From positions 31,111 to 95,110 of the forward strand of contig JAUSMJ010000029.1 in the NCBI GenBank assembly GCA_030645575.1: 64,000 nucleotides of DNA, written 5' to 3'. The DNA is from Caulobacter sp. (GTDB lineage: Bacteria > Pseudomonadota > Alphaproteobacteria > Caulobacterales > Caulobacteraceae). Below the pieces are notes generated by a model. It was not told the origin of the DNA and searched no databases. It saw only the letters and a program-made list of their open reading frames with translations. This document shows, piece by piece, positions 24,783 through 27,132 of the stretch. Position 1 is the stretch's first letter; each line of letters starts with the position of its first letter. A program made the position numbers and the translations under genes.

Positions 24783-27132
<2,350 letters not shown>

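Follow-up and report, generated by a model that had tools for sequence, protein, structure and literature searches.

The enolase gene (eno, phosphopyruvate hydratase) of this Caulobacter draft genome carries two consecutive in-frame stop codons, TAG TAA, at codons 101-102, with the reading frame intact on both sides. The best explanation appears to be an error, local to this site, in the consensus or assembly of a mixed draft (probability about 0.57); the three clustered base differences would then stem from the reads or the assembly, not from the chromosome, and the living cell would carry an ordinary enolase. A genuine, recent null mutation ranks second, as a serious alternative. Most likely, the tandem stops reflect either a local error in the sequence or a gene lost very recently, and not a new way of reading genes.

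Within the window (the whole stretch of 64,000 nucleotides analyzed here, which sits in C48, a contig of 95,110 bases), the full frame spans positions 24783-26063 of the minus strand. Its 426 codon positions comprise 100 codons, the two stops, and 324 further codons that run unshifted to a normal TGA. The 5' part (25764-26063, minus strand; codons 1-100) ends in the residues LDGT, and matches positions 1-97 of the 425-position enolase model TIGR01060 (E 1.5e-40). After TAG (25763-25761) and TAA (25760-25758), the 3' part (24786-25757, minus strand; 324 codons, from KSRLGAN to the C-terminus) matches model positions 100-423 (E 3.3e-150). The minus strand around the site reads CTG GAC GGC ACG TAG TAA AAG AGC CGG CTG GGC GCC AAC. 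With both parts matched by the model, the two enolase domains sit in one frame that is kept across the stops, just as a preliminary description made from the sequence alone had reported. The uninterrupted reading frame of a functional enolase is thus missing from the deposited sequence. The nearest listed start downstream of the stops lies 38 codons on: it is the GTG at 25643, which opens the longest post-stop ORF (24783-25643, minus strand). This codon had earlier been taken for an ATG; an ATG in frame first occurs at 25628. The accompanying statement that an internal start would give a fragment without the N-terminal domain holds for either codon. In the gap upstream of eno (26100-26330, minus strand) we observed repeated short stretches (CATCCTCC and CACGTCCGTGC) and a palindrome-like element (GGCCCGGACAAGCCGGGCCATGACGG). 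Two pyruvate dehydrogenase subunits in the window (21612-23225 and 19727-21058, minus strand) have near-identical N-terminal lipoyl-domain sequences, with 84% DNA identity over 236 bases.

A comparison of the site in close relatives, one of the checks suggested at the outset, was carried out on 30 intact Caulobacteraceae enolases that are more than 80% identical. In all 30, the first of the two codons encodes K, P, A, E or Q, and the second an invariant Asn; this rules out a chance ORF. The codon pairs were AAGAAC (9 genes), CCCAAC (8), CCGAAC (8), GCCAAC (2), and GAAAAC, CAGAAC and GAGAAC (once each). The nearest relatives of this gene have AAG AAC, so that reaching TAG TAA takes no fewer than three substitutions in a span of six bases, in agreement with the earlier remark that a single point mutation or indel would not suffice. 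Among the matches listed (about 150, from a sample of 249 family genomes), no other Caulobacteraceae enolase has an internal stop, which favours a local error.

The gene lies between pyrG and pdhA, as it does in the related genome G011. The possibility that a second eno elsewhere relieves this copy, raised in the preliminary description, found no support: this was the sole enolase match in the assembled draft, which is estimated to be 99.89% complete, and a search of a plasmid collection returned distant enolases only. A real but harmless lesion, backed by a second enolase in the unassembled part of the genome, would be consistent with the two enolase matches that G075 and G247 each have among the matches listed, and near-complete drafts can miss eno. 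One such case is G269, a Caulobacter draft (99% complete) with no eno match among the matches listed. There, the end of a contig (G269:C291, L252, position 48673) truncates pdhA to a 25-residue piece, and so eno has probably fallen into an assembly gap. However, five relatives (G011, G148, G250, G253 and G256) have a single copy among the matches listed, and the copy studied here bears no sign of relaxed constraint, so that we regard a hidden second enolase as very improbable.

The remainder of the gene shows the pattern of substitutions of a working enolase. Compared with eno of G011, it differs at 22 first, 13 second and 97 third codon positions. Outside the two stop codons, 2 of the 280 otherwise invariant residues are changed, and intact genes have 0-4 such changes. 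Judged from these counts, the gene outside codons 101-102 is under normal purifying constraint, with no decay or relaxation visible. Since third-position differences dominate and only these two invariant residues differ, the lesion must be either an error or very young. The clustering of three private changes within six bases would be unexpected (P 0.014) if changes were placed at random, and two adjacent stops are more than an old null would require. We did not find a donor for the altered sequence (across 1.26 Mb, no stretch of nine or more bases that includes TAGTAA recurs), nor a local template (no direct or inverted match within 500 bases). All these observations speak for a local error. 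A genuine null is made less likely by the three substitutions that it requires within six bases and for which we found no template. On the other side, a random six-base error at 69% GC would give two in-frame stops with a chance of only about 0.0004, a figure to be read with caution, since the stops are the reason why this site drew attention.

The quality of the draft bears on the error explanation in both directions. The draft comprises 3,200,018 bases in 83 contigs, with an estimated contamination of 2.97%, and is presumably a metagenome bin. It has one RF1-type release factor gene and three RF2-type genes, on contigs C41, C46 and C71 (L163, L164 and L165 of G000); two of the three are complete, and the other is a partial gene at a contig edge. 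Two of these contigs, C46 and C71, are parallel for about 5 kb, with 78-84% identity between them. From the surplus RF2 genes and these parallel contigs, we judge the draft to be mixed, that is, to contain DNA from more than one organism, as the error explanation supposes. A 16S search, meant to reveal the type of assembly, gave no match here, but none in the C. vibrioides control either. Otherwise the assembly looks clean, which weighs against an error and for a genuine lesion: among the 45 ORFs of the contig that match G011, eno is the sole broken gene. Poor assembly of the whole contig was considered and rejected; the other in-frame stops relative to G011 fall upstream of start codons or in an alignment that does not look gene-like.

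We also scanned a 1.26-Mb sample, equal to about 39% of the genome, for in-frame stops flanked on either side by coding signal. Of 37 candidates, eno was the only gene with coding signal straight across the stop. The other 36 have a start codon within about eight codons, or non-coding sequence just past the stop, as expected of neighbouring genes. Genome-wide recoding was rejected, given that the sample held no second case. A suppressor tRNA was rejected as well, as none of the 41 tRNA genes found in the assembled genome has a stop-reading anticodon. Programmed readthrough, bypassing, or an enolase split into two fragments would account for a frame and a constraint kept on both sides of the stops, but, besides the tRNA and scan results, RF1- and RF2-type release factors are both present with open frames, the tandem stops are shared by none of the relatives among the matches listed, 38 codons separate the stops from the next listed start, and no RNA element was matched in an Rfam search of the window. 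Recoding in eno is thus very unlikely, and the earlier preference for an error or a real disruption is upheld by every test, including the enolase search. A knock-out made on purpose or under selection, with the stops placed by oligonucleotide or CRISPR editing, has in its favour that two codons exchanged one-for-one for two adjacent stops would resemble a designed null; we consider it about as improbable as readthrough, as the genome resembles a mixed environmental draft and nothing else in the window hints at engineering.

The alternative that deserves most attention is a genuine, very recent null, arisen by one complex mutation or by a few in quick succession, with translation ending at codon 100 and yielding an inactive fragment. 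The cell would then obtain pyruvate through the Entner-Doudoroff pathway, a step that we assume for this organism from knowledge of Caulobacter, and PPDK or PEP synthase would convert pyruvate into phosphoenolpyruvate (PEP). The metabolic gene content would fit this in part. Pyruvate kinase (PF00224) was not matched in this genome, whereas the same search matched it in 14 of 14 control genomes, including C. vibrioides. It was likewise unmatched in G011, G148, G247 (a single-contig genome), G250, G253 and G256, whose enolases are the most similar to this one among the matches listed, and, within the genus, also in G269 and in a few genomes of lower completeness. Overall, 63 of 75 Caulobacter genomes have pyruvate kinase, and its absence here looks, from these searches, like a clade-wide loss. 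In another Caulobacter genome, G216, we observed a pyruvate kinase gene cut in the middle by a single in-frame TAG (G216:C50, L250, 791-2257, minus strand), both halves of which match TIGR01064. PPDK was found in each of the seven genomes examined for it. Beside PPDK, this genome has a complete PEP synthase gene (TIGR01418; L253, G000:C21, 1444-3852, plus strand), for which the six related genomes searched gave no match; the gene could have been acquired, or could lie on a contaminant contig. With PPDK and PEP synthase present, PEP could be made from pyruvate. Cofactor-independent phosphoglycerate mutase had no match here, but none in the C. vibrioides control either, so that its absence carries no weight.

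Among Entner-Doudoroff alphaproteobacteria, eno of Rhizobium leguminosarum was scored as non-essential on TY complex medium and growth-defective on mannitol (PMC5118466). Together with the lack of pyruvate kinase in the clade, this makes the puzzle of an interrupted essential gene weaker than first claimed. Against a true null, the relatives that lack pyruvate kinase retain an intact eno among the matches listed, where it must still be selected, and therefore the loss of pyruvate kinase alone does not free eno from selection. Furthermore, gluconeogenesis would still require enolase, constraint on this copy is not relaxed, and the contig with PEP synthase could belong to a contaminant. We therefore place a recent null below a local error, while considering it far more plausible than any of the remaining explanations. 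Somewhat more doubtful is the complete scenario of a free-living Caulobacter with a truly cut lower glycolysis, in which pyruvate kinase was lost in the clade and enolase newly lost, with PPDK or PEP synthase turning pyruvate into PEP, and sugar carbon passing through the Entner-Doudoroff pathway.

If the stops are an error, the gene needs to be flagged, lest metabolic models call the species enolase-negative. If they are a true null, the organism is a natural experiment that asks whether a free-living Entner-Doudoroff alphaproteobacterium can manage without enolase. The clade-wide absence of pyruvate kinase makes the dispensability of enolase a worthwhile question, however the stops turn out. 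Our search of the literature on enolase mutants and on error-derived stops in metagenome bins returned nothing usable.

In its length, its two domains (PF03952 and PF00113), its position between pyrG and pdhA as in G011, and its normal constraint elsewhere, the gene is a typical bacterial eno of the TIGR01060 family, and differs from it in the tandem in-frame stops at codons 101-102. It shares with known cases of stop-codon readthrough or recoding (by suppressor tRNA, Sec, Pyl or bypassing) that the coding sequence goes on in frame past the stop. Unlike those cases, it has two different consecutive stops, which are not conserved and have no second instance in the sample, in a genome where no suppressor tRNA was found and both release factors are present. 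The gene also resembles recently formed pseudogenes with a single lesion, and local consensus errors, in draft or metagenome-assembled genomes, where there is likewise one isolated break in an otherwise intact, constrained gene within a mixed draft. Such lesions and errors usually take the form of a single stop or a frameshift; eno differs in having two adjacent stops that derive from three clustered substitutions.
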